64,000 nt of DNA from an uncultured Gemmatimonadales bacterium (GTDB lineage Bacteria; Gemmatimonadota; Gemmatimonadetes; JACCXV01; JAHWKZ01): the NCBI GenBank assembly GCA_947259315.1, contig CAMYLR010000023.1, positions 18,437 to 82,436 on the forward strand, written 5' to 3'. The position numbers and the translations under genes were made by a program. The notes beneath the pieces are model-generated. The model was not told where the DNA came from and searched no databases. It saw only the letters and a program-made list of their open reading frames with translations. Below are positions 1,977 through 29,752 of this stretch, one piece after another. How positions within the stretch are numbered: the first letter of the stretch is position 1; every line of letters starts with the position of its first letter.

Positions 1977-2052
1977 TGTGTCAGAGATTTCAGTTACGGA
2001 GAGTTGAGAGAGCCGGTCCTCGAGGCGGGTCAGGGTCGGAGCCGGCTGTACG

Positions 2053-2397: not shown

Positions 2398-2403
2398 CCT
2401 TAT

Positions 2404-2432
2404 AGTATACTGCTCACCACTTTGACCGTCAC
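2404..2432 (-). promoter_or_regulatory. Putative rplS promoter, possibly leaderless
   Basis: On the minus strand there is a -35-like GTGACG (2432-2427), a 17-base spacer and a near-consensus -10 TATACT (2409-2404). Only six bases separate the -10 from the first rplS ATG, so a normal transcription start would fall at or next to that start codon. The -35 overlaps the trmD stop codon. Promoter motif matches this short can be chance; the ideal spacing and the AT-rich -10 in GC-rich DNA favour the call. Confidence 0.45.
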
Positions 2433-3145: not shown

Positions 3146-3147
3146 GA

Positions 3148-3651
3148 TTACAGCTCCTCCCACCCTTCGGGCGGGCTCACGACGATCGTCGTCGCATCGA
3201 CGTGACGAACGAAGGCCTCTACAAACGGCAAGAACCGACGCTGACCGCCGGGCTCGCCGATCTCCAACAACACCGGTCCCTCGGACTCGATCACCGATAT
3301 CACATCGCCAAACGAGCGACCGGTTTCATCCTTCACCTCGCACCCCACCAACGCGTGCAGAAAAAACTCGTCCTCGGCTTGCGCCTGGACCGCTTCGTCG
3401 TGCGGTATCAGCAGGTAATAACCGCTCCGCTGCTCGGCGTGCGTGCGGTCATCGATCCGATCGAGCTTGAGTAACCAGCGTTGCTTGTGACGCCGGCTGG
3501 CCACGATCGACACCGACACGCCGTCCGCATCCGCGTCGGGCGCCAGTACGAGGGTGCGCCCGACGGCGAACCGCTCTTCGTGCTCGGTCATCGGTTCGAC
3601 CTGGACCTCGCCCTTGATCCCGTGGGCTTTCACGATCCGGCCCACCACCAC
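3148..3651 (-). CDS. rimM: Ribosome maturation factor RimM
   Basis: Helps 30S head assembly by binding S19/16S rRNA. The 167-residue product has the RimM N-terminal barrel (VVGRIVKAHGIKGEVQVEP) and a C-terminal PRC-barrel (FFLHALVGCEVKDE, VLLEIGEPGGQRRFLPFVEAFV). It lies between rpsP (22-base gap) and trmD, as in many bacteria. The start is one of several consecutive GTG codons near 3651, with a GGAG six bases upstream; a shift of one or two codons is possible. Confidence 0.93.
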   Translation of the reverse strand: MVVGRIVKAHGIKGEVQVEPMTEHEERFAVGRTLVLAPDADADGVSVSIVASRRHKQRWLLKLDRIDDRTHAEQRSGYYLLIPHDEAVQAQAEDEFFLHALVGCEVKDETGRSFGDVISVIESEGPVLLEIGEPGGQRRFLPFVEAFVRHVDATTIVVSPPEGWEEL

Positions 3652-3673
3652 CAGCGTCTCCGGCGTCGTCAGG

Positions 3674-4117
3674 CTACCCCTCCGTTGTCTGCTCTGCGTC
3701 GTCCGCGATCTCGGTAGCCGGCTCGACGACGGGTTCGGGTGCTGGCGCCGGTTCGGGTGCTGGTACCGGTTCGGATGGGGGTTCGGGTTCGAGCGTTGGC
3801 GCGGGCTCAGGCGCCGGCGCCGCTACAGGCTCTGGCCGCGGCGCTTCCACCGGCCACTCGCCGGTTTTGAATCGCTGCCAAACGCCGACCTGGGCGAGCA
3901 GCGAGCGAGCGCTGTCGCTCGGCTTGGCGCCCATCTCCAACCACTCCAGCGCTTTGTCGCGGTCGATGTTGATATCGGCCGGGTCAACGCGCGGATTGTA
4001 CGTCCCGATCGTGTCCAGGAACCGACCGTCACGGGGGCTCCTGGAATCCGCCACCACGAGGCGATAATGAGGTTGCTTCTTGGCGCCCATGCGCCGCAAT
4101 CGAATGCGTACTGCCAC
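3674..4117 (-). CDS. rpsP: 30S ribosomal protein S16 with long Pro/Glu-rich tail
   Basis: Small-subunit assembly protein. Residues 1 to about 85 are a normal S16 ([52 protein letters not shown]). The family is usually 80-90 residues, but this one reaches 147. The extra 60 residues are low-complexity Pro-Glu-Ala built on repeats of PEPAPAPEP type, ending in an acidic stretch. The tail is in frame and meets rimM after 22 bases, so it is not an obvious frameshift. Such a tail would be disordered, solvent-exposed and acidic. Its role is unknown. Confidence 0.94.
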
Positions 4118-4120
4118 CCG

Positions 4121-5434
4121 TTACCTCCTTTGACGCTGAGATCCCAGCGTCGTCTTGAGTGTCTTCATCATCTTGTTCATCTCGCCAAACTGCTTCATGA
4201 GCTGGTTGACCTCTTGAACCGAAGTGCCGCTGCCGTTCGCGATCCGCTTCCGACGGCTGCCATCGAGCAGCTTCGGGTTGCGCCGCTCAGCCGGTGTCAT
4301 CGACAGGATGATCGCCTCGATGCGCTTTAGTCGGCTCGGGTCGACATCGACATCCCGCAGCTGCTTACCGACGCCGGGGATCATCCCGATCAACCCCTGC
4401 AGGGGTCCCATCCGCTCCAACTGCCGCAACGCGGTGAGGAAGTCTTCCAGATCGAGTTTTCCGCGGCCGACCTTTTTCTCGAGTTGGCTAGCGTCCTCGA
4501 CATCGATCGCTTCCTGGGCTTTCTCGACCAGCGATACGACGTCGCCACGATCGAGGATCCGCCCTGCCATGCGGTCGGGATGAAACGGTTCCAGGCCGTC
4601 GGTTCGCTCCCCGACGCCGATGAACTTGATCGGCAAACCGGTCACCGCATGGATCGATAGCGCCGCACCGCCACGCGCATCGCCGTCGAGCTTGGTCAGA
4701 ATCACGCCCGTCAGCGGCAGCCTGGCGCCAAACGTTTCGGCGATCTGCACTGCGTCGTGACCGGTCATCCCGTCGGCGACCAGGAGCAGCTCGTGAGGCG
4801 TGACCATCTGGACGACACGATCGAGCTCATCCATCATCGCGTCGTCGATGTGCAGCCGACCTGCGGTATCGACGATGACGACGTTGCGCTTGTCGGCCCG
4901 CGCTCGCTCGACGCCCGCCTGGGCCAAGCGCTCAACCTGAGTCTCGTTGCGATCCGATACCACCGGCAAATCGAGCTGGCGCGCCAACGTCTCGAGCTGA
5001 TCGATCGCCGCCGGTCGGTAGACATCGGCCGCCACCAGTAGCGGTCGCCGCCCGCGCTTCGCCATGCGGTGGGCGAGCTTGGCCGCGGTCGTCGTCTTGC
5101 CGGATCCTTGCAACCCGACCAGGGCGATCACCGTGGGCGGTTGCCGTGACTCTTCGAGCGGCGCGTTGGCGCCGCCCAATAGATCGACCAACTCGTCGTG
5201 CACGATCTTGATGACTTGCTGTGCCGGAGTGACCGACCGGGTGATCTCTTTTCCGCGGGCGCGCTCGGCTACCCGGGCGCAGAAATCCTTAGCCACCCGG
5301 TAGTGGACATCGGCCTCGAGGAGCGCGCGTCGGACCTCGCGCATCCCCTCGGTGATGACCTCTTCGTCGAGAACTCCGCGGCTCCGAAAGCGCGCCAGCG
5401 CGCCATCGAGTTTGGCACTCAGCTCGTCGAACAT
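4121..5434 (-). CDS. ffh: Signal recognition particle protein Ffh
   Basis: SRP GTPase that binds signal peptides and 4.5S RNA and targets ribosomes to FtsY and SecYEG. The 437 residues comprise an N domain (1-90), a G domain with P-loop GLQGSGKTTTAAKLA, DTAGRL and TKLDGDARGG, and an M domain from about 300 with GMIPGVGKQL, the RNA-binding SRRKRIANGSG segment and QFGEMNKMMKTL. It stops soon after the M domain, without a long Met-rich tail. It is three bases from rpsP and so probably starts a transcript covering rpsP-rimM-trmD. No 4.5S RNA gene was recognised nearby. Confidence 0.96.
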   Translation of the reverse strand: MFDELSAKLDGALARFRSRGVLDEEVITEGMREVRRALLEADVHYRVAKDFCARVAERARGKEITRSVTPAQQVIKIVHDELVDLLGGANAPLEESRQPPTVIALVGLQGSGKTTTAAKLAHRMAKRGRRPLLVAADVYRPAAIDQLETLARQLDLPVVSDRNETQVERLAQAGVERARADKRNVVIVDTAGRLHIDDAMMDELDRVVQMVTPHELLLVADGMTGHDAVQIAETFGARLPLTGVILTKLDGDARGGAALSIHAVTGLPIKFIGVGERTDGLEPFHPDRMAGRILDRGDVVSLVEKAQEAIDVEDASQLEKKVGRGKLDLEDFLTALRQLERMGPLQGLIGMIPGVGKQLRDVDVDPSRLKRIEAIILSMTPAERRNPKLLDGSRRKRIANGSGTSVQEVNQLMKQFGEMNKMMKTLKTTLGSQRQRR

Positions 5435-5545
5435 CGTTTCCCGTGATAAAACGGTCGCGGATCGTGCGCCGGCGTTCGGCGCCGCCCTCGTAGTCCGGGC
5501 CGTCCCGGAGAACGAAGGAAAGCGAATAGGCGAACCAATCTAGCC
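5435..5545. other. Intergenic spacer upstream of ffh
   Basis: This 111-base gap separates nhaC from ffh. It contains two short inverted repeats, GCGCCG-GCGTT-CGGCGC and CCGGG-CCGT-CCCGG, which can form small hairpins after the nhaC stop on the minus strand. Neither is followed by a T tract, so factor-independent termination is doubtful. The ffh promoter presumably also lies here, with an AT-rich TTTTAT on the minus strand about 18 bases before the start. Confidence 0.35.
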
Positions 5546-7084
5546 CTAGATCAGAATCGCAGCCACCAGAATGTAGAGCAGGCCGCCGAGCGTCGCGGCG
5601 GCTATCGCCAGCGGGAGTTGGGTCAAGACGTGATCCATCAAATCACAACCGGTGGCCAGCGACGACAGGATGGTGGTATCCGAGATCGGCGAGCATTGGT
5701 CGCCGAACACGCTCCCACCGGTGACCGCGCCAAAGCAGAGCGCCAGGTAGGTGGGGTCCGGTTGTACCGCCCACGCTAGCGGTATCGCGACCGGGAAGAT
5801 GACCGCGTAGGTCCCCCACGACGTTCCGGTCGAGAACGCGACGACCATGCAGAGAAAGAGCAACGCCGCGGGCAAGATGACCGGCGGAACCGCGCCAAAC
5901 GTCTCGACGATGTAGGGTGCCGTACCGACCGCATCGGCGACCGACTTGAGCGTTACCGCGAGCGCCAGCACCACCGCCCCGATCGTGACGCCGCGCCAAC
6001 CCGATAGCAGTCCTTCGATCACGGCGTGAAGCCGCATCCCCTTGATGAGCGCTACCGCCACGCCGACCAGAACCGCCAACACGAACGCCTCGGCGATCGG
6101 CAACGACAGCGCCGACGACTCTCGCTGGCCGAGCACGAAGTAGCTGATTACAAACGGGCCGATCGCCACGCCGAGCAGTGTCCCGATCGGCGCGAAGAAG
6201 TCGATCAGTCCGGGGTGGTAGTCGTAGGGCGGATCGATGCGCGTCAAATCGTCGGCCGCCATCGGAGTGGCACCGGGTCGATCGAGCACCCCCGTCTCGC
6301 GCGCTCGCTGGCGCGCGGTTGCCATTCGACGCCCGGTAAGCCGGCCCATTTTGTCACCCGCGAACAGCAGGGTGAACAAGATCGCGAAGATCGCATAGAA
6401 GTTGAACGGCAGCGCACGGAAGAAGAACGCGATCGCATCAGACTGAGTGGCCAGCACCGGGACGCTACCGGCGACCAGCCCGCCGACGTAGATCGGCCAC
6501 ACGTTGAACGGGATCAGCGTCGCCGCCGGCGACGCCGTCGAGTCGACGACATAAGCCAGCTCCTCGTGGGCCACCCGGTGCCGGTCGGAGACCGGGCGCA
6601 CGGTCGTCCCGGTCAACACCGTGCTGATCGTGCCACCTTGATGGAAGACGAGTCCCATGACCCAGGCAAAAAGCTTGGCCGACCGCGGTCCAGTCGCGAC
6701 CCGCTTGCCAGCCCATGATGCGAACCGCTGAGCGCCACCGGTTTTGGTCCACAACCCGATCAGCCCGCCCAACGACCACAGATACACGAGCAGAATGAGC
6801 GCGTAGTTCTCCGATCCGACCGATGGGATGAGGAACCCTTGGACGATGTTGAGCTCGCCGCTGATGACGCCGCCCAGCACGATGCCGACAAACAAGGCCG
6901 TAATGACCTCGCGCAACGCGAAGGCGAGCACCAGCGTGACCAGCGGGGGGACGACCGACCACGCGCCGTAGTGCACTCCATTGGTGGGAAACCGACCGGT
7001 GAGAGTGACACCGATCGCGACGAGCGCGACCCCAAGCAGTAAGACCCGCCACCGAAACCCACGGCCGGACCGTTTATCCGTCAC
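5546..7084 (-). CDS. NhaC-family Na+/H+ antiporter
   Basis: Inner-membrane cation/proton exchanger of 512 residues with about a dozen hydrophobic segments. The NhaC-type pattern includes LLVYLWSLGGLIGLWTKTGG, a conserved GLVFHQGGTISTVLTGTT loop, DSTASPAATLIPFNVWP, and near the C-terminus FSTGTSWGTYAVIFPVAIPL and GSVFGDQCSPISDTTILSS. The start is GTG at 7084. It follows rpe by ten bases, so it could be transcribed with the housekeeping operon although it has no clear functional link to it. Substrate ion is inferred from the family; lactate/malate-linked NhaC relatives exist. Confidence 0.85.
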   Translation of the reverse strand: MTDKRSGRGFRWRVLLLGVALVAIGVTLTGRFPTNGVHYGAWSVVPPLVTLVLAFALREVITALFVGIVLGGVISGELNIVQGFLIPSVGSENYALILLVYLWSLGGLIGLWTKTGGAQRFASWAGKRVATGPRSAKLFAWVMGLVFHQGGTISTVLTGTTVRPVSDRHRVAHEELAYVVDSTASPAATLIPFNVWPIYVGGLVAGSVPVLATQSDAIAFFFRALPFNFYAIFAILFTLLFAGDKMGRLTGRRMATARQRARETGVLDRPGATPMAADDLTRIDPPYDYHPGLIDFFAPIGTLLGVAIGPFVISYFVLGQRESSALSLPIAEAFVLAVLVGVAVALIKGMRLHAVIEGLLSGWRGVTIGAVVLALAVTLKSVADAVGTAPYIVETFGAVPPVILPAALLFLCMVVAFSTGTSWGTYAVIFPVAIPLAWAVQPDPTYLALCFGAVTGGSVFGDQCSPISDTTILSSLATGCDLMDHVLTQLPLAIAAATLGGLLYILVAAILI

Positions 7085-7094
7085 GCCGGGGGCG

Positions 7095-7763
7095 TCAATC
7101 GACTGTCGCTTGACGTAGCGCGCGCGTACGCGCCGCCGGGTCGTCGCCGCCGTAAACGCCAGAGCCGCTGACGAGCACGTCGGCTCCCGCTCGCACGACG
7201 TCGGCCGCGTTGTCGGCGGTTATGCCGCCATCGACCTCGAGCCACGGGCGGCTGTCCTCGGGCAACCGATCGATCCGCTGGCGAGCGATCCGCAGCCGGT
7301 CCAACGACTCGGAGATGAACCGCTGTCCTGACCAACCGGGATTGACGCTCATGACGAGCAACAAGTCGAACGCTCCCCACACCGCGTCGACCGCGCTCAG
7401 CGGCGTACCCGGGTTGATCGCCACACCCGCTTTGACACCCAACTCGCGAACGCGTTGAAGCTGGCGGTGGAGGTGGGTCGTGGCCTCGGCGTGAACGGTC
7501 AAGATGTCGGCACCGGCGTCGACATATTCGTCGAAGTACTGCTCCGGTCGTTCAACCATCAGGTGAACATCGATCGGGACGTCGACCGTCCGTTCGGCGG
7601 TCTTTATCATCGCCGCGCCGAACGTCAAGTTGGGGACGAAGTGGCCGTCCATGACATCGACGTGGATCCAATCGGCCCCGCCCTCGACGACGGCGACGAT
7701 CTCATCCGCCAACCGATCAAAGTCCGCAGCCAGCACGGACGGTGCGATCATGACCCCGCTCAC
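7095..7763 (-). CDS. rpe: Ribulose-phosphate 3-epimerase
   Basis: Interconverts ribulose-5-phosphate and xylulose-5-phosphate in the pentose phosphate pathway. A 222-residue TIM barrel with APSVLAADFDRLADEI, the metal-binding HVDVMDGHFVPNLTFG, DVHLMVERPEQY, LVMSVNPGWSGQRFI and EVDGGITADNA. All expected metal ligands (His, Asp, His, Asp) are visible. The GTG at 7763 overlaps the stop of the PASTA gene as GTGA; an internal ATG four codons later is an alternative. rsmB-PASTA-rpe is a recurring order next to fmt. Confidence 0.95.
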   Translation of the reverse strand: MSGVMIAPSVLAADFDRLADEIVAVVEGGADWIHVDVMDGHFVPNLTFGAAMIKTAERTVDVPIDVHLMVERPEQYFDEYVDAGADILTVHAEATTHLHRQLQRVRELGVKAGVAINPGTPLSAVDAVWGAFDLLLVMSVNPGWSGQRFISESLDRLRIARQRIDRLPEDSRPWLEVDGGITADNAADVVRAGADVLVSGSGVYGGDDPAARTRALRQATVD

Positions 7764-8524
7764 GGATCCACCCGACCGAGCTCGAGCCGCGCCGCCGAGC
7801 CGGTGTGGACGTGTTGGCCCGGCCGCGGCTGTTGACCGGTTACGACGGTCGGTCCCGCGACACCCTGTTGGTCGGGACTCGATGAGCCCACTTGGCCGAC
7901 CGTGATCCCGTAGGCGAGCAGCGTGTCACGAGCGGCCCTCAACCCCAGACCGCGGACGTCGGGCATCTCGACCAGCGTGCCACCCTGGCTTATGACCATC
8001 GTGACCTCGACGCCGGGTTCGATTTCAGTACCCGCCGGTGGCACCGTCTCGACGATCGTCCCCCACGGGTGCAACTCGCTCGGTCTTTGTCGAGTGGGTG
8101 TGATCGCGAGACCGAGTCGGGACAAGATCTCCTCCCCCAGCTCGGGCTCGACGCCGGCCAGATCGGGCAGCACGGTTGGCTCAGTGCCGCGACTGACGAG
8201 CACCCACACCGTATCACCGCGGGGACGATAGAAACCCGGCGGCGGCAGCTGGTAGAGCACCCGACCTGCTTCGACATCAGCGCTCCGGCGCTCGCCACCC
8301 GGTGTGACGACGTACCCCTCGGCCTCGGCTTTGTCACGCGCCCGATCGAGCTCCATTTGACCCAGGTTCGGCACCCGGTTGATGCGACCCTGAACCAGAG
8401 TGTCAGGCAAAAAGAAGAGTTGCGCCGCGATGTAACCGACCAATAGTGCGCCGATCACGGTCGCCACGATCGCCAGCGGGATCTGCCAGGTTGCGCTCCC
8501 GACGCGGGGTGGCAGCGCGCTCAC
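7760..8524 (-). CDS. PASTA-domain membrane protein
   Basis: One transmembrane helix near residues 15-38 is followed by about three PASTA repeats (roughly 48-112, 113-180 and 181-250; for example PNLGQMELDRARDKAEAEG, LPDLAGVEPELGEEILSRLG, MPDVRGLGLRAARDTLLAYG). PASTA domains bind peptidoglycan or muropeptides in kinases and penicillin-binding proteins. Here there is no kinase or transpeptidase domain, so it is a stand-alone anchored sensor or scaffold. It overlaps rsmB and rpe by four bases each (GTGA type). Function is unknown; envelope location is inferred. Confidence 0.85.
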   Translation of the reverse strand: MSALPPRVGSATWQIPLAIVATVIGALLVGYIAAQLFFLPDTLVQGRINRVPNLGQMELDRARDKAEAEGYVVTPGGERRSADVEAGRVLYQLPPPGFYRPRGDTVWVLVSRGTEPTVLPDLAGVEPELGEEILSRLGLAITPTRQRPSELHPWGTIVETVPPAGTEIEPGVEVTMVISQGGTLVEMPDVRGLGLRAARDTLLAYGITVGQVGSSSPDQQGVAGPTVVTGQQPRPGQHVHTGSAARLELGRVDP

Positions 8525-9861
8525 GCCGCCTCGCGCACCAGTCGAGCAGCGAAGAAGCCATCCAGGTCGCCGCTCCAGGGTCGGGTAATCATATAGTTGC
8601 CGTCGCGATAGTGAGCGGGCACAGCCCCGCCCACCGGAACGCTTCGGAACTCTTGGCGATCGGAGAGAAACGTGGTTACCACTCGATCGTTCTCCTCGGG
8701 TTCGAGCGAGCAGGTAGCGTAAACGAGCGTGCCGCCAGGCGCGACTCGATCAGCGAGCTGCGACAAGAGCTCGCGTTGAAACGCTGCAAACGTCGTCACG
8801 TCTTCGGGCGAGCGCCGCCATCGCGCGTCCACCCGCCGACGCAACACGCCGGTACCGCTGCACGGAACGTCGGCGATCACCAGTGAAAACTGCGCCTCGG
8901 TCGGCACCGAGCGCGCGTCGGCGGCCACGAGCCACGGCTCGGTCAGCCCTAGACGGTGAACGTTCTCGCGAACCCGCCGCAACCTCGCGACATCGATGTC
9001 GATCGCCAACGCGCGAACCGTCGGTGCTTTGGCCAACAGTCCGCACAGCTTGGTCCCGGGTGCTGCACACGCGTCGAGCACGCGGTCGTGGGGCCCCGCA
9101 TCGACCATATCCGTGACCCACTGCGAACCCGCGTCCTGGATCCAGAACCACCCATCGACCCAACCCGGCAAGGCGGTCGGCGGCGTGCCGCGACCGACGA
9201 CCAGGGCGTCCGGTTTGTCGGGGTGCGGGTGGGCCTCGATACCGGCTTCGATCAACCGCTCGAGGACCGTCCCGGTCGTTGCCCGCCGCACGTTTACCGC
9301 CAAGTGCAGATTCGGTGGCCGATTGTTGCTCTCGAGCAGCGCCTCGGCCGTCTCCGCACCGTACGCTTCGATCCACCGAGCCACCATCCATTTGGGATGA
9401 CTGTATTTGACCGCCAAATAGAAGACTCGGTCGTTCGGGTCCGGCAGCGGCAGTTCCTGACGTTGCCGATCGACGTTTCTAAGAACCGCGTTGACGAGCC
9501 CCGACGCCCACCGCGCTCCACCGTTCGGGAGCGCGTGGTTCACCAGCTCGACGCTCTCGTCGACCGCCGACCAGACCGGCACGCGATCCAGAAACACGAT
9601 CTGGTAGGCTCCCAACTCGAGGATCGATACGACGTCGGGCGGGAGCGTGTCGATCCCGCGCTTCAGCAACGCATCCAGATGGTAGTCGAGCCGGTCGCGC
9701 CATCGGATCGCGCCGTACGCCAGCTCCATCGTGAACGCCCGCTGACGATCGTCAAGCCCGGCAGCGCGTCGCTCGAAACTCTCGTCTGCGCGTTTCCCGT
9801 TTCGCACATCGCGTAGGATCTCGAGCGCCCGCCGCCGCTCAACGCTGGGGCGCGCACCCAT
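8521..9861 (-). CDS. rsmB: 16S rRNA (cytosine-967-C5)-methyltransferase RsmB
   Basis: SAM-dependent m5C methyltransferase of 446 residues. The N-terminal NusB-like RNA-binding domain (about 1-150, with ALEILRDVRNGKRADESFE) is followed by a Rossmann catalytic domain with DACAAPGTKLCGLL, ADVPCSGTGVLRRR and the catalytic YATCSLEPEEN. Both cysteines used by the RNA m5C family (PCSGTG and TCS) are present. It starts directly against the thiG stop. The order fmt-rsmB is common; here three thiazole genes separate them. Confidence 0.93.
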   Translation of the reverse strand: MGARPSVERRRALEILRDVRNGKRADESFERRAAGLDDRQRAFTMELAYGAIRWRDRLDYHLDALLKRGIDTLPPDVVSILELGAYQIVFLDRVPVWSAVDESVELVNHALPNGGARWASGLVNAVLRNVDRQRQELPLPDPNDRVFYLAVKYSHPKWMVARWIEAYGAETAEALLESNNRPPNLHLAVNVRRATTGTVLERLIEAGIEAHPHPDKPDALVVGRGTPPTALPGWVDGWFWIQDAGSQWVTDMVDAGPHDRVLDACAAPGTKLCGLLAKAPTVRALAIDIDVARLRRVRENVHRLGLTEPWLVAADARSVPTEAQFSLVIADVPCSGTGVLRRRVDARWRRSPEDVTTFAAFQRELLSQLADRVAPGGTLVYATCSLEPEENDRVVTTFLSDRQEFRSVPVGGAVPAHYRDGNYMITRPWSGDLDGFFAARLVREAA

Positions 9862-10689
9862 TCAGTCGCCGACCCGGCCCTCCGTCGGACTCGACGCGCT
9901 GGCCCACTGGCGACGGGGCATCCGACCGGCTTCGAATGCCAACCGCCCGGCTTCGACCGCGTGCCGCATCGCGGTGGCCATCAACACCGGATCGTCGGCC
10001 GTGGCGATAGCCGTATTCATGAGGATGCCGTCGACGCCGAGCTCCATCGCGACCGCCGCGTCCGACGCCGTCCCAACACCGGCATCGACGATGACCGGAA
10101 CCGAAACCGCTTCCAGTATGAACTGGATGTTGAGCGGATTGGTCACCCCGAGACCGGAACCGATCGGCGAGGCGAGCGGCATGACCGCCGCCGCGCCCGC
10201 TTCTTCGAGGCGCCGCGCGATCACGACGTCATCGTTTGTGTACGGCAACACGGTGAACCCCTCGTCGACGAGGGTTCGAGTCGCCGCCACGAGCCCTTCG
10301 ACGTCGGGGTACAACGTCCGCTCGTCCCCGATGACCTCGAGCTTGATAAAATCGCTCAGCCCCGCGGCCCGACCGAGGCGAGCGACACGTATGGCGTCGT
10401 CCGCTGAGTAGCAGCCAGCGGTATTCGGAAGGATCAGGACCTTGTCTGGATCGAGATAGTGGAGCAGGCTGGCTTCGTCCGACGCGTCGAGCTTGACGCG
10501 TCGCACCGCAACCGTAATGACCTCGGCGCCCGACGCCTCGAGACACCGAACCATCGTTTCGGGAGAGTCGTACTTGCCGCTGCCGATGATGAGCCGGGAA
10601 CGGAACGTTCGTCCACCCAGCTGCCACCCGGTCGGCAGATCTGCCACCGCGTCGCTCGGCATCGATTGTGTCGTGGTCGCCTCGGTCAT
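9862..10689 (-). CDS. thiG: Thiazole synthase ThiG
   Basis: Forms the thiazole phosphate of thiamine from DXP, dehydroglycine and ThiS thiocarboxylate. The 275-residue TIM barrel has the ThiG core: [37 protein letters not shown], the Schiff-base lysine in [49 protein letters not shown] and [16 protein letters not shown] clear GGAGGGTGAT precedes the ATG. It directly follows thiS. ThiO/ThiH, ThiF and ThiC are not in this window and must be elsewhere if the pathway is complete. Confidence 0.95.
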
Positions 10690-10704
10690 ATCACCCTCCT
10701 TTGC

Positions 10705-10935
10705 TCAGCCACCGCCCACGAAGTGAACGACCTCGAGCGTGTCACCTGCCGATAGCGCTGTCACGCCAAACCGATCTCGGGGCAAGATGACACCGTTGGC
10801 TTCGACCACGACGGTATCGGGATCGATCTCATGAGCGGTAAGAAACATCTCAACGGTCGCCCCGTCGGCGACGAGCCGCGGTTCGCCGTTGACGACGATC
10901 TCGACCGTGTTGTTGGCGACAGTCGGGTTTGACAC
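10705..10935 (-). CDS. thiS: Sulfur carrier protein ThiS
   Basis: Ubiquitin-like carrier whose C-terminal glycine becomes a thiocarboxylate and donates sulfur to ThiG. The 76-residue reading from GTG at 10935 contains EIVVNGEPRLVADGATVEMF and ends in VHFVGGG, the same triple-glycine ending seen in Bacillus ThiS. A longer frame reaching 11076 overlaps the upstream gene and lacks homology, so GTG 10935 is chosen; it lies four bases after the upstream stop. Lies 15 bases before thiG. Confidence 0.9.
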   Translation of the reverse strand: MSNPTVANNTVEIVVNGEPRLVADGATVEMFLTAHEIDPDTVVVEANGVILPRDRFGVTALSAGDTLEVVHFVGGG

Positions 10936-17976: not shown

Positions 17977-19083
17977 ATGAGTGAAGGCGTCGCACGCCGG
18001 CTCTCGTTGTTGGATCGCTACCTGACGGTCTGGATCTTCCTGGCGATAGCGGTGGGGGTCGGCCTCGGGTATTTGATCCCGGAAGTCGAGTCCTTCATCG
18101 ACCGCTTTCAGGTCGGCACCACCAACATCCCCATCGCGGTCGGCCTGATCCTGATGATGTATCCGCCGCTCGCCAAGGTCCGCTACGAGGCGCTGGGGAA
18201 TGTTTTCCGGCACAAGCGGGTGTTGGCCCTGTCGCTCTTTCAGAACTGGGTCGTCGGACCGATCGTGATGTTCGCGCTGGCGATGATGTTCCTGGCCGAC
18301 CTGCCAGAGTACGCGGTGGGGTTGATCCTCGTAGGTCTCGCCCGCTGCATCGCCATGGTTCTCGTTTGGAACGACCTGGCGCGTGGTGATCGCGACCTCG
18401 TCGGCGGCCTGGTCGCGCTCAACGCCATCTTCCAAGTGCTCTTCTACGGCTTTTACGCCTACGTCTTCATCACTCTCTTGCCGCCGTTGTTTGGTATGGA
18501 AGGGAGGATCGTCGACGTCACGATCGGAGAGATCGCGCAGAGCGTCCTCATCTATCTGGGGATTCCCTTTCTCGCTGGGGTGTTGACCCGGCTGATGCTC
18601 GTCAAGCGGAAGGGACGCGAGTGGTACGAGCGGGTCTTTATTCCGAGAATCAGCCCGGTAACGCTGGTGGCGCTGCTGTTCACGATCGTGGTGATGTTCT
18701 CGCTCAAGGGCAATTTCATCGTCCAGCTGCCGCTCGATGCGGTGCGGATAGCGATTCCGCTCGCTATCTACTTTGTATTCATGTTTCTGGTCACTTTCTT
18801 TGCGGGTCGGAGCCGCCGCATCCGGGCCGGCTACGCGGAGAACGCTACCATCTCGCTCACCGCTGCGAGCAACGACTTCGAGTTGGCGATCGCGGTCGCG
18901 GTGGCGGTCTTTGGTGTCGGGTCGGGCGTTGCTTTCGCTACCGTGATCGGGCCGCTGGTCGAGGTCCCGGTTCTGATCGGGTTGGTGAACGTCGCGCTCT
19001 ACTTCGAGCGCCGTTACTACGGTGTGGCACCCGAGCCAGCTCCGGAACTGGCTCGCGACCTAACCGACGCTTCCCGGATCTGA
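17977..19083 (+). CDS. acr3: Acr3-family arsenite efflux permease
   Basis: Inner-membrane As(III)/H+ antiporter, 368 residues with ten hydrophobic segments. Family signs: [32 protein letters not shown], the essential cysteine in [19 protein letters not shown], and [20 protein letters not shown]. arsR upstream supports the substrate. No arsC or arsA is seen. The 3' end overlaps the 3' end of the convergent cyclase gene by 24 bases. Confidence 0.92.
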
Positions 19084-21711
19084 GAGCGCGAGCTGGCTGG
19101 CGGCTTCGAGGTCCATCGCGAGTCCTTCCGTCCACGCGGCGTCGAACGGCTGGTTGCCGAGCGCGCTCTTCGTGGCTGCCACATGGCGGTCAAACAGATC
19201 ACGATCGACGTCGTCGAGGACCGCGCCCATCGGCTTTCGCAAAGCCTCCGCGGCCCCAAATAGACGCGCGGCGCGCAGGTGGTCGTTTTCCGTGGAAGCG
19301 ACCTGAGCGAGGCCGACCAATCCGTACATCTTCGTCAGCCGGTTATCGAACCGAAGCGCCAGAGTTAGTCCCTCGCTGTAATGCTCGCGTGCCCGACCCG
19401 TATTGCCCAATTCGAGCTCAGCCTGGCCCAAGTTGAAATGCAACACATCCTCGGCGGTGACGTTGCCCTGCGCACGCGAGACCTCGAGTCCCTCGAGGTA
19501 GAGCGACCGGGCGTGCTCGAAATCGCCCTGCGCCCGGTAGGCTTCGGCCAAGTTCCCGAGCAACAGCGATACCGCACGGTGGGCCCATGCAGCGTCAAAA
19601 TCGCGGGCGATCGCGAGAGCGCGCTCGTGCCGCTCGATCGCTGCATCGAGCGTGTCCTCAGTGACGTCGATCCGTCCTTGGGCAGCCAACGCGCGGACCA
19701 TGATCACCGGATCGTTCTCGGCCTCGCCAAGCGCTAGCGCCTGGTCCGCGACCTTTCGCGAGCGCTCCAGTGAACCATGAAAAAACAGCAGCGAGCTCAG
19801 TCCGTACAACGCCTTTCCGCGGTCGCGCGCATCCGTTTGAGCCTCGGCGTTGACCGCTCGCGTAGCCCATTCGATCCCTTCGGTCAGCGCCCCGGCGCGA
19901 CGCCAATAGCGCCAAAGCGTGCTCACCATCCGCAGCGCCGACGCCGACTCTTCCCCTCGGAGACTCCACTCGAGTGCGGCGCGCAGATTGTCGTTGTCCG
20001 CTCGCAGGCGATCCATCCAATCCGCCGAGTCGGGACCACTCAACCCATCCTCGGCGCGTTCGGTGAGCTCTTCGAACCAACTCAGGTGACGATCGTGAAC
20101 CGCGTTCGCATCGCCCGTTTCCGCCAGTCGTTGCGCAGCGTAGTCGCGGGTCGTCTCGAGCATCCGGTAACGCGACTCTCCAGCCGGTTCTCGCTCGACG
20201 AGCACCAGCGACTTGTCGACCAGCGCACCCAGTGAATCGATCACGTTGGCCGCCGGCCCGCAGACACTCTCGGCGGCGCGCAAGGTCCAACCACTGGCAA
20301 ACACGGACAGGCTGCGAAACAGCGCTTGCTCGTCCGGTTCCAAGAGCTCGTAGCTCCACTCTATCGTCGCCTCCAACGTGTCGTGTCTGGCGCCTTTCGC
20401 TCTCGAGCCGCTCCGCAAGAGCCGAAACCGATCGTCGAGACGATCCGCGATCTCATCGACCGATAGCACAGCGATGCGGGCGGCCGCGAGCTCGATCGCC
20501 AGCGGGATCCCATCCAACCCGTGGCACAGCCTGGCTACGGTAGCCGCGTTTTGTTCGTTGATCGTGAAGTCGCTGCGTGCCAACCGCGCGCGATCGACAA
20601 ACAGCTGTACAGCATCGAACGCGTGAGCGGCCTCAGCGACGGCGGTCGACGGCAGCTGATCCGGATTCGGGGTGTCGAGCACCGGCACCTGCCATACTTG
20701 CTCGCCTTCGAGTCCCAGGCTCTCACGACTGGTAGCCAGAATTCGAACACCCGGGCTGGAGTGAAGCAACAACGCAGCCAGCTCCGCGCATGCATCCCGG
20801 GCGTGCTCACAGTTGTCGAGAAGCAACAACACGTGCTTCGATCGCAGCCCGTCAGTCAGCGTATCGAGCAGCGGTCGCCCACCGGCCTCCCGGATTCCGA
20901 CCGCTGAAGCGACCGCTTGTGGAACTCGCGCCGGGTCGGTTACCGCACCCAGCTCAACCAACCAAACGCCGTCCTCGAACTGATCCAACAGCCCGCGTGC
21001 CACTCGAGTTGCGAGTCGCGTCTTACCGGTACCGCCAAGCCCGGTGAGCGTCACCATGCGATGCCGTTCGAGCAGCGCGTTGACCGTCTCGATCGCACGT
21101 TCGCGATCGACAAAGCGTGTCAGCCGATGGGGCAGATTGTGCCGGGGCTGGTCGGATGACTCGAGCGGGGGAAAGTCGCCCTGCAGGCTGGCGTGCAGGA
21201 GCTGGAACACACGCTCCTGTCGCTCAACATCGCGCAGCTGGTGCTCACCGAGATCGAGGAACCCGGCCCCCTCGGGCGCGTGCTCCCCGATCAAATCGCG
21301 GGTGGGTCCGGAAACCAAGACCTGGCCGCCGTGTCCGATCGAGACCAGCCGGGCGATCCGGTTCAAATCGCGACCGAAGTAGTCTCCATCGCGGTGTTCG
21401 GGTTGACCGGTGTGGAGCGCCATCCGCACGCGGAGCTCGCTACCCGCCTGAACGGAGGTTTCGAGTCCCCGCTGAGCCTCGAGCGCGGCGGCCAATGCGT
21501 CAGACGGTGTCGAGAACGCGGTGCAAAAAGCGTCGCCGATCGTCTTGAAGATGTGCCCGGAATGGGTTTCGATCGCACGTCGCAACAAAGCATCGTGATC
21601 GGCGAGCGCCTTCTCCATGCCGACAGGGTCTTGCTCCCAAAGCCGGGTGCTGCCCTCGATGTCGGTAAAGAGGAAGGTGACGGTTCCGGTCGGCGGAGAC
21701 GTGTGCACCAT
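19060..21711 (-). CDS. Class III cyclase domain fused to NB-ARC-like ATPase and TPR repeats
   Basis: A large (883-residue) signalling protein. Residues about 1-170 are a class III nucleotide cyclase: [16 protein letters not shown] with a metal Asp, FKTIGDAF with the second Asp and purine-specifying Lys, DLNRIARL with transition-state Asn and Arg, and [10 protein letters not shown]. Residues 215-480 are a STAND/LuxR-type ATPase with Walker [34 protein letters not shown] and [13 protein letters not shown]. From about 560 come tandem TPR-like helices. No DNA-binding domain is seen. All cyclase residues look intact, so cAMP synthesis is plausible. The input signal is unknown. It lies between ruvB and arsR-acr3, probably inserted into the ruv-queA order. 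Confidence 0.87.
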
Positions 21712-21739: not shown

Positions 21740-22813
21740 TCAGCTATCGAACAGGTGTTCCTGCGGGTTGTCGGCGCTGGGTGGCGAACCCGCGATCCCG
21801 AGGTGTGTGTAGGCGCGGGCGGTCGCCACTCGACCCCGCGGCGTGCGATGCAAGAACCCACTCTGGATCAAGAACGGCTCGTGCACTTCCTCGAGCGTGT
21901 CGGCGTCCTCGCCGACGGCTACCGCCAGCGAGTTCACGCCCACCGGACCGCCGCCAAACTTGTCGATCAGTGCGGTCAAGATCCGGGTGTCCATCTCGTC
22001 GAGGCCGACGTCGTCGACATCGAGCGCCTCCAGCGCGGCACCCGCGATCTCGCCGGTAATCCGACCATCACCCTTTACGAGTGCAAAGTCACGGCTCCAC
22101 TTGAGCAGACGATTGGCGACCCGCGCCGTACCCCTCGAGCGCTCAGCGATGACGCCGATGCCGTCCGCATCGATCGCGACGTCGAGGATTCGGCCCGATC
22201 GCTCGACGATCTGCGCCAACTCGTCCGAGGTGTAGAAATCGAGTCGCGCGGCGTGTTCGAACCGGGAACGTAGCGGACCGGTCAACAGTCCACGTTTGGT
22301 AGTCGCGCCGACCAGCGTGAAGTGCTCGAGCGGCAGCGATACCGATCGCGCCGCCGGTCCGGAATCGATCAAGATGTCAAGTTGAAACTCTTCCATGGCC
22401 GGGTACAAGTACTCCTCGACGACCGTTCGCAGACGATGGATCTCGTCGATGAACAAGACGTCGCCGCGCTCGAGACCGGTCAACAATCCGGCCAGATCGC
22501 CCGGTTTCTCGAGCACCGGGCCGCTAGTGACGCGGATCTTGCCGCCCAGCTCGTGGGCCAGGATATGGGCCAGCGTCGTCTTGCCGAGCCCCGGCGGACC
22601 GGAGAACAAGCAGTGACCGAGCGGTTCCCCGCGTTGCTTGGCGGCTTCGATCGAGATCGCCAGGTTTTGTTTGAGCTTCTCCTGTCCCGCGAACTCGGCC
22701 AACGTGCGCGGGCGGAGCGTCTGCTCGAACACTTCCTCCTCGGGCGCCGCCGGCTCGGGGCGCGTGGCGCTCCCCGTCAGGTACGATCGAAACGGCTTGT
22801 CGGTTTCTGTCAT
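21740..22813 (-). CDS. ruvB: Holliday junction helicase motor RuvB
   Basis: Hexameric AAA+ motor for branch migration. The 357 residues have the family N-terminus ([19 protein letters not shown]), Walker [16 protein letters not shown], Walker [10 protein letters not shown], sensor 1 [17 protein letters not shown] and the C-terminal winged helix with [16 protein letters not shown]. It sits four bases downstream of ruvA. Confidence 0.97.
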
Positions 22814-25393: not shown

Positions 25394-26581
25394 ATGCTCA
25401 GAACGACGCCCTTCCACCCCCGCACGGGTCCGTTGTGCCAAGCGAAGAATTGGCGCCGCTGGGCCGGCTACGTGGCTGCCAGCTCGTATGAGCTCACCCA
25501 CGAACGTGAATACCACGCGATCCGCAGCGCGGCGGCCCTGATCGATGTGTCCCCCCTCTACAAATATTCGGTGCGCGGACCGGATGCCGGGCGGCTGCTA
25601 AACCGCGTCGTTACACGCGACGTCGACAAGTGTGCGGTCAATCAGGTGATGTACACCCCGTGGTGTGACGAGGACGGAAAGGTGATCGACGACGGCACGT
25701 TGTCGCGACTGGGCGAAGAGACGTTTCGACTGACCGCCGCCGAGCCGAACTTGCGCTGGCTCCGCGACAACGCGCTCGGCCTAAACGTGACGATCGACGA
25801 CGTCACCGACTCGATCGCGGCCGTGGCGTTGCAGGGGCCCAACTCACGCGAGATCCTCAAGCACGCTTCGGATGCCGAACTGGACGACCTTCGGTTCTTC
25901 CGATTGACACCGGCGCGAGTTCAAGAGGTTCCGGTGACGATCTCACGCACCGGATACACCGGCGATCTGGGCTACGAGGTCTGGGTCGACGCGGAGCGGG
26001 CGGTGTCACTCTGGGACGCGCTCATGGCGGCCGGTGAACCGTACGGAATCACCCCTGCCGGTATGCTGGCGCTCGACGTCTCGAGAATCGAAGCTGGCCT
26101 GCTGTTGAATCAAGTCGATTACATCCCGGCCAATAAGGCGCTTCTCGAGACGCGCAAGTCGTCGCCGTTCGAACTCAGCCTGGGGTGGACGGTCGCACTC
26201 GGCAAGGATCAATTCGTCGGCCGAGCATCGCTGGTCGAGGAACAGCGCCGAGGTCCGGCGTCGCACCTGAGGGGGCTAGAAATCGAGTGGGAGTCGCTGG
26301 AGGAGATATACGCCGAGTTTGGCCTCCCGCCCGAGCTTCCGACGATCGCCTGGCGAACGAGCGTGCCGGTGTACTCGAACAGCAAGCAGATCGGCTACGC
26401 AACCAGCGGAGCCTGGTCGCCGACGCTCAAGAGGTACATCGCGCTGGCACACTTGCGTGCCCAACACGCGGAACTGGGCACCAAGCTGGCGATGGAGGTT
26501 ACCGCCGAGCATCAGCGCAAATCGGCGCTAGCAAGGGTCGTAACGACGCCGTTCTTCGACCCCGAACGGAAGCGCGCCTGA
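25394..26581 (+). CDS. GcvT-like folate-dependent aminomethyltransferase/demethylase
   Basis: A 395-residue protein of the GcvT/DmdA/YgfZ fold that usually transfers one-carbon units to tetrahydrofolate. Seen: HEREYHAIRSAAALIDVSPLYKY, RVVTRDVDKCAVNQVMYTPWCDEDGKVIDDG, VALQGPNSREIL, ISRTGYTGDLGYEVWV, ALDVSRIEAGLLLNQVDYI and GYATSGAWSPTLKRYIALAHL. The canonical glycine-cleavage YTGEDG reads YTGDLG, as in demethylase-like paralogs. No gcvH or gcvP is adjacent, so glycine cleavage is unlikely to be its job. Its stop overlaps the next FAD gene (TGATG), which argues for a shared pathway. Confidence 0.82.
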   Translation: MLRTTPFHPRTGPLCQAKNWRRWAGYVAASSYELTHEREYHAIRSAAALIDVSPLYKYSVRGPDAGRLLNRVVTRDVDKCAVNQVMYTPWCDEDGKVIDDGTLSRLGEETFRLTAAEPNLRWLRDNALGLNVTIDDVTDSIAAVALQGPNSREILKHASDAELDDLRFFRLTPARVQEVPVTISRTGYTGDLGYEVWVDAERAVSLWDALMAAGEPYGITPAGMLALDVSRIEAGLLLNQVDYIPANKALLETRKSSPFELSLGWTVALGKDQFVGRASLVEEQRRGPASHLRGLEIEWESLEEIYAEFGLPPELPTIAWRTSVPVYSNSKQIGYATSGAWSPTLKRYIALAHLRAQHAELGTKLAMEVTAEHQRKSALARVVTTPFFDPERKRA

Positions 26582-28161
26582 TGGCTGCGAATCGTTACGA
26601 CGCAGTGGTAATCGGCGGTGGCCACAATGGCCTGGTCGCAGCGGCCTACCTCGCCCGGGCCGGGAAGAAAGTGCTGGTTCTCGAGCGGCGTCACCTGGTC
26701 GGCGGCTCCGCCGTCACCGAAGAGATCTACCCAGGCTTCAAGTACTCGGTCTGCTCTTACGTGGTGAGCCTGCTCCGTCCCGAGATCATCCGCGAGCTGG
26801 ACCTCTCCGCACACGGGCTCGACCTCCTCCCGCTCGAGAGCACCGTTACGCCGCTGCCAAACGGCGACTACTTAGCCCGATGGGCGGATCACGATCAGAC
26901 CCGTCGCGAGCTCTACCGCCACTCACCCAGAGACGCCGAAGCGTACGATGAGTTTGGCACGCTGATGTACCACCTCGCGTTTGCGGTCAAGCCGATCCTT
27001 TCGATGGTGCCGCCCGATCCCACGTCGTTGAGCCCTGCTGATCTGCGATCGCTGCTGAAACTCGCCAATCACTTTCGCGGGCTCGGCGAAGAGAAGCTGT
27101 ACCCGCTAATCAAGCTCATGACGATGAGCTCGGCCGATTATCTCGATGAGTGGTTCGAAACCGAAGCACTGAAAGCGACGATGTCCGCCAGCGGCGTCAT
27201 CGGCACTTTCCTCGGACCACGCTCACCGGGAACCGCATACGTGCTGCTGCACCACTACATGGGCGAGATCGATGGCGCTTTTCGGGCGTGGGGTTTCGCG
27301 AAGGGCGGGACCGGCAGCGTGAGCGAGGCGATCGCCAGTGCGGCGCGAGGGTTGGGTGCCGAGATTCGCACCGAGGCGTCGGTTGCGCGGGTCATCATCG
27401 AGAACGGTCGAGCGGCCGGTGTCGCGCTCGAATCGGGCGAGGAGATCCGGGCCAACGTCGTCGTATCCGGAGTCGACCCCAGGCTCACGTTTCTCGGCCT
27501 GATCGAACCCGACGAGCTGCCGAGCGAGTTTGTCCAGGCGATCAAACGATTCAGGATTCGCGGATCGTCGGGCAAGGTGAACCTCGCGTTGGACGCGCTC
27601 CCGAACCTGGCTTGCCTCCCCGGCGTCGGGCCCCACCTGCGCGGCGCGGTCTCGATCAGCCCCAGCATCGAGTACCTGGAACGAGCCTATGACGACGCCA
27701 AGTACGGAAGCTTCTCACGCCATCCCTACATGGACATCGTCCTCCCATCGATGATCGATCCCGACATGGCGCCACCGGGCAAGCACGTGATGTCGATCTT
27801 TGTCCAGTACGCGCCATACGAGTTGAATGGCGGTTGGAACGACGCGCAGCGCGAAGAGTTTGGCGATGCCGTGATCGACACGCTGTCGGAGTACATGCCG
27901 AACCTGAAAGAGATCATCCTCCATCGCCAAGTTCTGACGCCGTGGGACATGGAACGCGATTTTGGCTTGACCGAGGGCAACATCTTCCACGGCGAGCTCT
28001 CGCTGCACCAGCTGTTCTTCATGCGGCCGGCAGCGCCGTGGACGGATTACCACACTCCGATCAAGGATTTCTATCAGTGTGGATCGGGCACCCATCCCGG
28101 TGGCGGGATATCGGGAGCCTCGGGGCGGCTGGCCGCACTGACGATGCTCGAGGATATGTGA
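26581..28161 (+). CDS. PYROXD2/CrtI-like FAD oxidoreductase, copy 1
   Basis: A 526-residue flavoprotein of the phytoene desaturase/PYROXD2 superfamily. The N-terminal dinucleotide motif is VVIGGGHNGLVAAAYLARAGK with an acidic end in VLVLERRHLVGG. Other parts are YPGFKYSVCSYVVSLLRPEI, KVNLALDALPNL, ERAYDDAKYGSFS, DFGLTEGNIFHGELSLHQ and the C-terminal FAD motif GSGTHPGGGISGASG. Carotenoid genes are absent nearby, so carotenoid desaturation is unlikely. It shares a stop/start overlap with the GcvT-like gene and ends one base before the paralog. Confidence 0.85.
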   Translation: MAANRYDAVVIGGGHNGLVAAAYLARAGKKVLVLERRHLVGGSAVTEEIYPGFKYSVCSYVVSLLRPEIIRELDLSAHGLDLLPLESTVTPLPNGDYLARWADHDQTRRELYRHSPRDAEAYDEFGTLMYHLAFAVKPILSMVPPDPTSLSPADLRSLLKLANHFRGLGEEKLYPLIKLMTMSSADYLDEWFETEALKATMSASGVIGTFLGPRSPGTAYVLLHHYMGEIDGAFRAWGFAKGGTGSVSEAIASAARGLGAEIRTEASVARVIIENGRAAGVALESGEEIRANVVVSGVDPRLTFLGLIEPDELPSEFVQAIKRFRIRGSSGKVNLALDALPNLACLPGVGPHLRGAVSISPSIEYLERAYDDAKYGSFSRHPYMDIVLPSMIDPDMAPPGKHVMSIFVQYAPYELNGGWNDAQREEFGDAVIDTLSEYMPNLKEIILHRQVLTPWDMERDFGLTEGNIFHGELSLHQLFFMRPAAPWTDYHTPIKDFYQCGSGTHPGGGISGASGRLAALTMLEDM

Positions 28162-28162
28162 C

Positions 28163-29752
28163 GTGAGCCGACCCTACGACGCGATCGTCATCGGTGCCGG
28201 GCACAATGGGCTCACGACCGCGGCGCGCCTAGCCAAGGCGGGCTTACGCGTACTGGCGCTGGAGGGACGGGACACGGTCGGCGGCGCTCTGGTGACTGAG
28301 GAGATCCACCCCGGCTTCAAGGTCGATGCCGCATGCCACCAGATCGGGGCTTTACACCCCGGCGTGGTCGGCGATCTCGATCAAGCGCTCGGGGTCACAC
28401 CCGACATCGTGCGTTCTGACCCGGTCGTATTCGCGCCGCTCATCGATGGTCATCCGCTGCTCCTGTGGCGTGACCCGATAGCCACCGCCGAGGCGATCGC
28501 GACGTTCTCGAAGCGTGACGCCGAGAGCTGGAGTGCGTTTGTCGAGTTGATCAGCAAGGCTGCCGGTTTGCTCGAGGCGGCCTACGAAAGGACCCCACCC
28601 GATCTCTTATCGGTTGATGCGAGTGATCTGTGGTCGCTGGTGCGCCTCGGAGGTCGGGCCCGCCGGCTCGGGAAGCGCGACATGATGGAGGTGGCTCGGC
28701 TCCTCACCATGACCGCCGTCGAGTTGCTCGACGAGTGGTTCGAGAACGATCTGCTCAAAGGAACGCTCGGTGCCACTGGTGTCACGGGCATGTTTCAGGG
28801 CCCGATGGCGGCCGGGACGGCGTACATGCTGCTCCACAATCACGTCGGGACGGAGAACGGTACCGTCCGGTCGGCGGACCGAGTGCGAGGCGGGGTTGGT
28901 GTTCTGTCACACGCATTGCGCGATCTGGCACGGTCGTGTGGCGTGGAGATCAGGACCAACGCACGCGTCACTCGGATCACCGTCAAGGACGGTCGAGCGA
29001 TTGGTGTGGTGCTCGCGAACGGCGACGAGTTGGAAGCCGAGCGCGTCATCTCGAACGCTGACCCGCGACGCACGTTTCTGGATCTCGTCGACCCGCTCGA
29101 TCTCGCCCCGCGATTCGTCCGTCAGGTTCAGAACATCAAGTACCGGGGCGCCTGTGCCAAAGTGAACTTGGCACTCGATACGCTTCCGAGCTTCGCCGTT
29201 AGCGATCCGGCCCTCCTCGGCGGTGTCGTGTCGATCAGCCCAAGCCTCGACTATCTGGAGCGCGCCTACGACGACGCCAAGTACGGAGACATCTCCCGTG
29301 AGCCGTATCTGGAGGCGGTCATCCCCTCGCTGGCCGACCCATCATTGGCTCCTGACGGAAAACACGTCATGTCGATCCTCGTCCAGTACGCGCCCTATCA
29401 TCTCAACGATGGCACGTGGGATGAGTCGAGAACCTCCGAGCTCGGCGATCGGGTAGTGAAAACATTGGCTCAGTACGCGCCCAACCTCGAACAGATCGTG
29501 CTCGCTCGGCACGTCTTGAGCCCGCGCGACCTCGAAACGGATTTCGGCTTGACCGAGGGGAACATCTATCACGGCGAGATGACGCTCGATCAGCTCTTCT
29601 TCATGCGTCCGGTCCCAGGCTGGGCCCGCTACCGCACGCCGATCGAGAATCTCTATTTGTGTGGCGCCGGAACGCACCCGGGTGGTGGCGTCACCGGCCG
29701 GCCCGGCTACAACGCCGCCCGCGAAATCTTAAAGGATGTAAAACGCGGCTAG
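28163..29752 (+). CDS. PYROXD2/CrtI-like FAD oxidoreductase, copy 2
   Basis: A 529-residue paralog of the preceding gene, starting with GTG. It shares most signature strings: VIGAGHNGLTTAARLAKAG, HPGFKVDAACHQIGALHPGV, KVNLALDTLPSF, SISPSLDYLERAYDDAKYG, DFGLTEGNIYHGEMTLDQ and GAGTHPGGGVTG. The region after HPGFK differs clearly between copies (VCSYVVSLLRPE versus AACHQIGALHPG), so substrate recognition may have diverged. Tandem duplicates of equal length could form a heteromer or catalyse consecutive steps. A strong palindrome follows the stop. Confidence 0.85.
   Translation: MSRPYDAIVIGAGHNGLTTAARLAKAGLRVLALEGRDTVGGALVTEEIHPGFKVDAACHQIGALHPGVVGDLDQALGVTPDIVRSDPVVFAPLIDGHPLLLWRDPIATAEAIATFSKRDAESWSAFVELISKAAGLLEAAYERTPPDLLSVDASDLWSLVRLGGRARRLGKRDMMEVARLLTMTAVELLDEWFENDLLKGTLGATGVTGMFQGPMAAGTAYMLLHNHVGTENGTVRSADRVRGGVGVLSHALRDLARSCGVEIRTNARVTRITVKDGRAIGVVLANGDELEAERVISNADPRRTFLDLVDPLDLAPRFVRQVQNIKYRGACAKVNLALDTLPSFAVSDPALLGGVVSISPSLDYLERAYDDAKYGDISREPYLEAVIPSLADPSLAPDGKHVMSILVQYAPYHLNDGTWDESRTSELGDRVVKTLAQYAPNLEQIVLARHVLSPRDLETDFGLTEGNIYHGEMTLDQLFFMRPVPGWARYRTPIENLYLCGAGTHPGGGVTGRPGYNAAREILKDVKRG

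Follow-up and report, generated by a model that had tools for sequence, protein, structure and literature searches.

Several described enzyme systems couple the removal of methyl groups to folate. In dimethylglycine oxidase (DMGO), DMGDH and heterotetrameric sarcosine oxidase, an N-methyl group is oxidized by a flavin with a GcvT-like folate domain at hand, which is a mechanistic parallel to the locus described here. In DMGO and sarcosine oxidase, as in trimethylamine N-oxide (TMAO) demethylase (Tdm), a GcvT-like domain captures the one-carbon unit as methylene-THF. In the glycine betaine pathway (GbcAB, dimethylglycine, sarcosine) a quaternary-amine Rieske oxygenase acts first and is followed by flavin/folate demethylation.

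Here we describe three adjoining genes, A, B and C, in a window of 64,000 nucleotides, the whole stretch analyzed, from an uncultured Gemmatimonadales bacterium. A encodes a GcvT-like protein, and B and C encode two flavoproteins of the CrtI/PYROXD2 type. We propose that they act together in catabolism, as a module that demethylates amines oxidatively at nitrogen and passes the methyl carbon to tetrahydrofolate, a reading to which we give a probability of about 0.68. No paper joining the three families was found in the open literature, which was the scope of the search; the preliminary description, made without searches, likewise knew of no described pathway of this composition.

The three genes and their protein families

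The three genes lie on one strand (Table 1). The stop codon of A (TGA, 26579-26581) shares one base with the ATG of B, and a single base, 28162, separates the stop of B from the GTG of C, so that the tight joining first noticed in the sequence is found in the open reading frames. On the minus strand, genes resembling RuvB, RuvA, RuvC and YebC are read upstream of A, and genes resembling EF-G and an OPT-type transporter downstream of C. No co-directional transporter is found 3' of C in the window, and neither a Rieske gene nor a transporter abuts the cassette in the window genome or in its genus mate. The open reading frame at 19060-21711, adjoining the ruvB-like gene (21740-22813), looks by eye like an adenylate-cyclase/predicted-ATPase fusion of a regulatory type.

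Table 1. Positions of the cassette genes, their key residues and motifs, and a second GcvT-like gene in related loci
Feature	Position	Strand	Description or basis
Gene A	25394..26581	+	395 aa, stand-alone GcvT-like putative folate-binding protein
Gene B	26581..28161	+	526 aa including Met, ATG 26581, stop 28159-28161, FAD oxidoreductase
Gene C	28163..29752	+	529 aa, GTG start, second FAD oxidoreductase
Asp100 codon, gene A	25691..25693	+	alignment to 1woo
GGGHNG FAD dinucleotide-binding motif, B	26614..26631	+	sequence; (near-)invariant in B orthologue alignment
GAGHNG FAD dinucleotide-binding motif, C	28193..28210	+	sequence and C orthologue alignment
Second GcvT-like gene	L055 12553-13560	cassette orientation	
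Second GcvT-like gene	L063 12210-13193	cassette orientation	
Second GcvT-like gene	L064 10907-12097	cassette orientation	
Second GcvT-like gene	L086 9835-11088	cassette orientation	

The product of A belongs to the GCV_T family (Pfam GCV_T 221 bits, cut-off 25.6; GCV_T_C 55 bits). Its best match in the PDB is residues 407-784 of Tdm (9q59), which align over the whole length of A with a profile E-value of 9e-79 (9q59/9q5a). Next come GcvT proteins, DMGO, sarcosine oxidase and DMGDH, of which the last three are N-demethylases, as is Tdm. Asp100 of A aligns with Asp96 of Thermotoga maritima GcvT (1woo; ..IIDDLVV.. / ..VIDDGTL..), which we take to be the catalytic residue of that enzyme. It is kept in 16 of the 17 aligned A orthologues, and the remaining one has Glu.

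None of the named families tested accommodates A. As a GcvT it scores 177.6 bits on TIGR00528 (cut-off 235.85) and lacks a gcvH/gcvP context, GcvP being encoded elsewhere. As a Tdm it reaches 321 of the 1100 bits set for NF053776, and only profile positions 386-761 are matched. As a DmdA it reaches 152.5 of 410 bits (NF009133). By profile score the GcvT-like proteins LigM, DesA and DmdA are weaker relatives of A; as a counterpoint to an N-methyl reading, the family that A resembles includes O- and S-demethylases too. The preliminary description had given A the GcvT fold with divergence from the glycine-cleavage enzyme, and the 221 bits for GCV_T together with a score below the TIGR00528 cut-off agree with this. 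It had also placed no glycine-cleavage gene nearby. Indeed, the best GcvT match of the window genome is on contig 19 and GcvP on contig 3, away from the cassette. Judged by sequence, A is a paralogue of this separate housekeeping GcvT.

B and C match the Pfam family Amino_oxidase with 77 and 88 bits and also give N-terminal FAD Rossmann matches. The Amino_oxidase profile covers their full length, and the DAO profile covers the N-terminal Rossmann segment only. With no DAO-family partner or fusion present, B and C are not assigned to the DMGO/DMGDH/sarcosine oxidase family. Their best NCBIfam match is CrtO (NF045689; 322 and 332 bits, cut-off 1000), and CrtI_fam (TIGR02734) gives 127 and 136 bits against a cut-off of 238. 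All carotenoid cut-offs are missed, and B and C were rejected as CrtI or CrtO carotenoid enzymes. The cut-offs and the gene context rule out a carotenoid or a glycine-cleavage operon. The AlphaFold model of B (pLDDT 87) has the carotenoid desaturase CrtD (4rep) as its best structural match, with Z 34. Other desaturase-like oxidoreductases, renalase and amine oxidases follow at Z about 20-28, the amine oxidases at about 20-24. As modeled, the fold of B would be compatible with a lipid or an amine substrate and does not decide between them. The model of C has a pLDDT of 89. The profile matches, the FAD motifs and the fold match of B to 4rep bear out the earlier assignment of tandem FAD oxidoreductases of the CrtI type. 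We take both to be members of the family of human PYROXD2.

B and C share 48% identity. B evolves slowly (61-73% identity to most orthologues in other phyla) and C faster (36-60% to its orthologues). In a quick maximum-likelihood tree that includes the alphaproteobacterial copies, B and C split with 100% support, which indicates two distinct paralogues retained together. One may speculate that the conserved A and B are a constant demethylation core and the diverging C a variable partner for specificity.

Distribution and neighbors of the cassette

In a sample of 119 genomes of the class, an A orthologue (identity of about 50% or more) is present in about 53, and 55 have a B orthologue at 62% or more. 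The class score list for B has a gap under 62%, and C-type and single paralogues follow at about 50%. An A accompanies 54 of the 55 B orthologues, and the lone exception starts at a contig end. Wherever contigs permit, A and B are adjacent at every class locus examined. Since orthologues that are 50-90% identical stand side by side in dozens of genomes, this adjacency is not due to chance.

A scan of a collection of 84,980 species extends the range. The best 80 matches to A carry labels of at least eight bacterial phyla, namely Gemmatimonadota, Chloroflexota, Neomarinimicrobiota, Acidobacteriota, alpha-, beta-, gamma- and deltaproteobacteria, Eisenbacteria, Zixibacteria, Melainabacteria and Rhodothermaeota, besides two archaea-labelled MAGs; these labels are the depositors' and some are plainly wrong. 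B lies near A in 74 of 76 informative loci (the exceptions are L097 and L130), and two or more FAD genes are found in 63 of the 76. The co-occurrence of the three families, put forward earlier as a check, is therefore observed. Had the genes of relatives been found solo, or next to carotenoid or glycine-cleavage genes, this would have spoken against a joint function; A and B were instead together at these 74 loci and at every class locus examined. A curiosity of a single genome is ruled out by this recurrence.

The commonest arrangement is A-B-C on one strand. In 21-23 loci, of which many carry an Acidobacteria label, A and B-C are divergently oriented, and the order B-C-A is found on three alphaproteobacterial plasmids. 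The linkage outlasts these changes in gene order, an argument for a functional tie and against mere frozen synteny. The cultured Shinella zoogloeoides ATCC 19623, Fuscovulum ytuae and Parasedimentitalea marina carry the module, and it can therefore be tested in these hosts. In Shinella zoogloeoides ATCC 19623 the B-C-A genes span 277735-282126 of NZ_CP086611.1 (L156 4767-9158).

Several variants were observed. Three distant class members (L060-L062; G106, G061, G094) have A-B pairs without C, about 37% and 46% identical, possibly an ancestral or reduced form. In Anaerolineae-labelled loci (L098, L100, L103, L111) the cassette is interrupted by insertions (DUF3800 and others), and a small cupin gene is often upstream. 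A MAG titled Klebsiella pneumoniae (L118), a label that is probably wrong, carries, upstream of the cassette, an Lrp/AsnC regulator and a gene that matches the C-terminal domain of lysine-2,3-aminomutase. In several Gemmatimonadota genomes a second GcvT-like gene lies 3' of C (Table 1); it is about 32% identical to A and DmdA-like by eye. The homologue on pSymA of Sinorhizobium meliloti 1021 (L154 8001-9185, 41% to A) was not counted, as B and C are absent beside it. It neighbors genes for SHMT, a class-V aminotransferase, a hydroxyacid dehydrogenase and a VanA-type oxygenase, and forms, in a laboratory strain, another candidate folate-linked cluster. Plasmid matches at about 36% in Rhizobium hidalgonense and Aquabacterium olei were set aside as large fusions, apparently Tdm.

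Among 102 genes flanking the cassette, the top family is Rieske plus Ring_hydroxyl_A with 13 members; the runner-up has 3. In 31 loci a Rieske oxygenase gene is found no more than about 310 bp from the cassette, on one side or the other and on either strand; these loci represent 26 of the 71 informative non-redundant clusters (90% identity in A). Two close relatives from the window's own family (L054, L065) have it adjacent. In the remaining non-redundant loci (about 63%) no neighboring Rieske gene is found. The sole Rieske match in the window genome is partial and unlinked (L149; G000 contig 17:2288-2848), with Glu at the bridging position (DGGLESYH). The main subtype of the linked oxygenase matches best the structures 3n0q, stachydrine demethylase Stc2 (3vca, 4qup) and carnitine monooxygenase (6y8j). 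Its best NCBIfam profile is GbcA, with 239 bits against a cut-off of 670. Quaternary-amine oxygenases of group V are marked by a bridging Glu with an aromatic residue two positions earlier, which is Tyr in group Va (PMC7948474). Every complete match of the main subtype has the motif (Q/E)NY(x)E, as in QNYCECYHC, that is the bridging Glu with Tyr two residues ahead; this gene, which lies outside the window, thereby bears the quaternary-ammonium mark of group V. Stc2 has Asn at the position of the group Va Tyr, as in Vb. A scan for NY(x)E in the L119-like Rieske subtype, which accompanies mainly Acidobacteria-labelled cassettes, did not return the motif.

Other recurrent neighbors are APC amino-acid permeases (12 loci), a dimethylargininase-like (DDAH-like) hydrolase (9), homocysteine S-methyltransferases (5), an M20 deacylase of ArgE/DapE type (4) and a class III aminotransferase (4). 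In Neomarinimicrobiota-labelled L093-L095 (about 2000-10900) the APC permease, M20 deacylase, dimethylargininase-like hydrolase and A-B-C form one run, followed in L093 by a Rieske oxygenase; such a run would fit a methylated arginine or an acylated methyl-amino acid as substrate. Rieske genes or ABC transporters for amines/polyamines adjoin the alphaproteobacterial B-C-A clusters. The linked transporter that the preliminary description had proposed to look for is thus found in relatives, as APC permeases in 12 loci and as amine/polyamine-type ABC transporters in alphaproteobacteria; none abuts the window copy. The DDAH-like gene scores under the dimethylargininase cut-off and is found in few lineages. 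With 9 loci only and no match in the window genome it was rejected as a general partner. The cupin, FAA hydrolase, S9/M28 peptidase and homocysteine methyltransferase were likewise rejected as module parts, being lineage-restricted. No carotenoid gene is prominent among the recurrent neighbors, in keeping with what was claimed for the window; Rieske genes are prominent instead.

Proposed mechanism and alternatives

The linked quaternary-ammonium Rieske oxygenase, the amino-acid and amine transporters and the dimethylargininase-like hydrolase point to N-methylated substrates, and A-B-C probably removes methyl groups from nitrogen compounds into folate metabolism. Where a Rieske gene is linked, the group-V oxygenase would act first, converting a trimethylammonium compound to a tertiary amine or freeing trimethylamine from it. 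B, C or both would then oxidize the N-methyl group of a tertiary or secondary amine to an iminium via FAD. A would bind THF and take the one-carbon unit, yielding 5,10-methylene-THF. With this capture on THF, formaldehyde would not be released. The activity of A-B-C, the order of its steps, the formation of a complex and the substrate are all what we infer. The leading substrate candidates are methylated amino acids of the basic kind (methyl-lysines and amines derived from methyl-arginine) and small methylamines. Since about two thirds of the non-redundant loci are without a neighboring Rieske gene and the linked oxygenases are of more than one type, the substrate may vary by lineage.

The human genetics of PYROXD2 fits the N-demethylation reading, the association being a genetic one and the kinship of B and C to PYROXD2 our assumption. 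Among known genetic determinants of N6-methyl- and dimethyl-lysine, PYROXD2 variants are the strongest, with p of about 1e-146 for N6-methyllysine, and the missense variant rs2147896 accounts for about half of the plasma variance of N6-methyllysine and dimethyllysine and is associated with N-methylpipecolate as well (PMC8109053, PMC9730628). TMA and DMA levels also associate with PYROXD2 variants (PMC3169529). A bolder combined proposal is that A-B-C, with or without the Rieske oxygenase, is a widespread system for the full demethylation of tri- and dimethyl-amino acids with the C1 units passed onto folate, and that PYROXD2 is itself an N-methyl-amine (methyllysine) oxidase passing C1 to folate; we consider this conjunction unlikely. 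Trimethyllysine to lysine, or the products of methylarginine, may be examples of such a full demethylation.

Of the alternatives, a different order of events is conceivable, if tentative, and survives best. C-N cleavage would come first: the group-V Rieske oxygenase or the dimethylargininase-like hydrolase would split carnitine-like, choline-like or methylarginine compounds to free TMA or DMA, which A-B-C would then demethylate with folate capture. The linked Rieske oxygenase has the Tyr of group Va (CntA-type, which yields TMA from carnitine) where Vb has Asn, Tdm as the nearest relative of A works on TMAO, and TMA and DMA are altered with PYROXD2 variants (PMC3169529). The DDAH-like gene abuts A-B-C in nine loci, but its low score and few lineages weaken the argument. 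Furthermore, CrtI-like pockets are large for TMA and DMA.

It is very unlikely that B and C are CrtI/CrtO-like desaturases or oxidases of a lipid or isoprenoid and that A, though co-transcribed with them, is a C1 protein of different function. The top fold match to CrtD and the top NCBIfam matches to CrtO and CrtI_fam would suit such enzymes, but the carotenoid cut-offs are missed widely, the recurrent neighbor is a quaternary-amine Rieske oxygenase with no carotenoid gene prominent, and the A-B linkage persists through rearrangement of gene order. Least probable of all is a DMSP- or vanillate-like S- or O-demethylation with A as a methyl-transferring demethylase and the flavoproteins handling the remaining molecule: DmdA, LigM and DesA are weaker relatives of A, a DmdA-like paralogue lies 3' of C in a few loci and the Fuscovulum cluster contains a DMSP-lyase-family gene, but DmdA (152 bits against a cut-off of 410) is more distant from A than Tdm, GcvT and DMGO are, to our knowledge DmdA requires no flavoprotein, and the linked oxygenases are of the quaternary-amine type.

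The scheme originally suggested, oxidation of an N- or S-methylated compound with capture of the C1 unit by the folate protein, is supported and sharpened. Its N-methyl half is favored in view of the Rieske oxygenases, transporters and hydrolase, and its S-methyl half (DMSP) is not.

Comparison with known systems

If the N-demethylation reading is true, the CrtI/PYROXD2 type would be a third flavoprotein lineage in folate-coupled oxidative demethylation. Tandem 'phytoene dehydrogenase-like' genes, vaguely annotated or unannotated in environmental phyla, would obtain a function, methylated nitrogen compounds would be recognized as supplying C1 units in soil and sea, and a testable bacterial model for human PYROXD2 would be at hand.

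By analogy, A-B-C would work like the folate-coupled oxidative demethylases, yet it falls outside every named family tested. The C-terminal THF-binding GcvT-like domain of Tdm aligns across all of A, the DDGT motif included. In Tdm, however, this domain is fused to an N-terminal catalytic domain in a chain of about 790 aa, while A is separate and has CrtI-type flavoproteins alongside. GcvT of glycine cleavage has the fold and the catalytic Asp in common with A, but A is under the equivalog cut-off and the window genome holds a separate GcvT and GcvP. CrtO, CrtI and CrtD have the fold and the FAD motifs in common with B and C; the scores of B and C are far under the cut-offs, and the linked genes are C1/amine genes, with carotenoid genes absent nearby. 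In the glycine betaine pathway the order of steps is the same as proposed here. The linked Rieske oxygenase, however, is under the GbcA cut-off and has Tyr in place of the group Vb Asn, and the flavoprotein family differs too. Finally, DMGO, DMGDH and sarcosine oxidase use a DAO-family flavoprotein, fused to the folate domain in DMGO and DMGDH, while B and C are of the CrtI/Amino_oxidase type and A is a separate chain.
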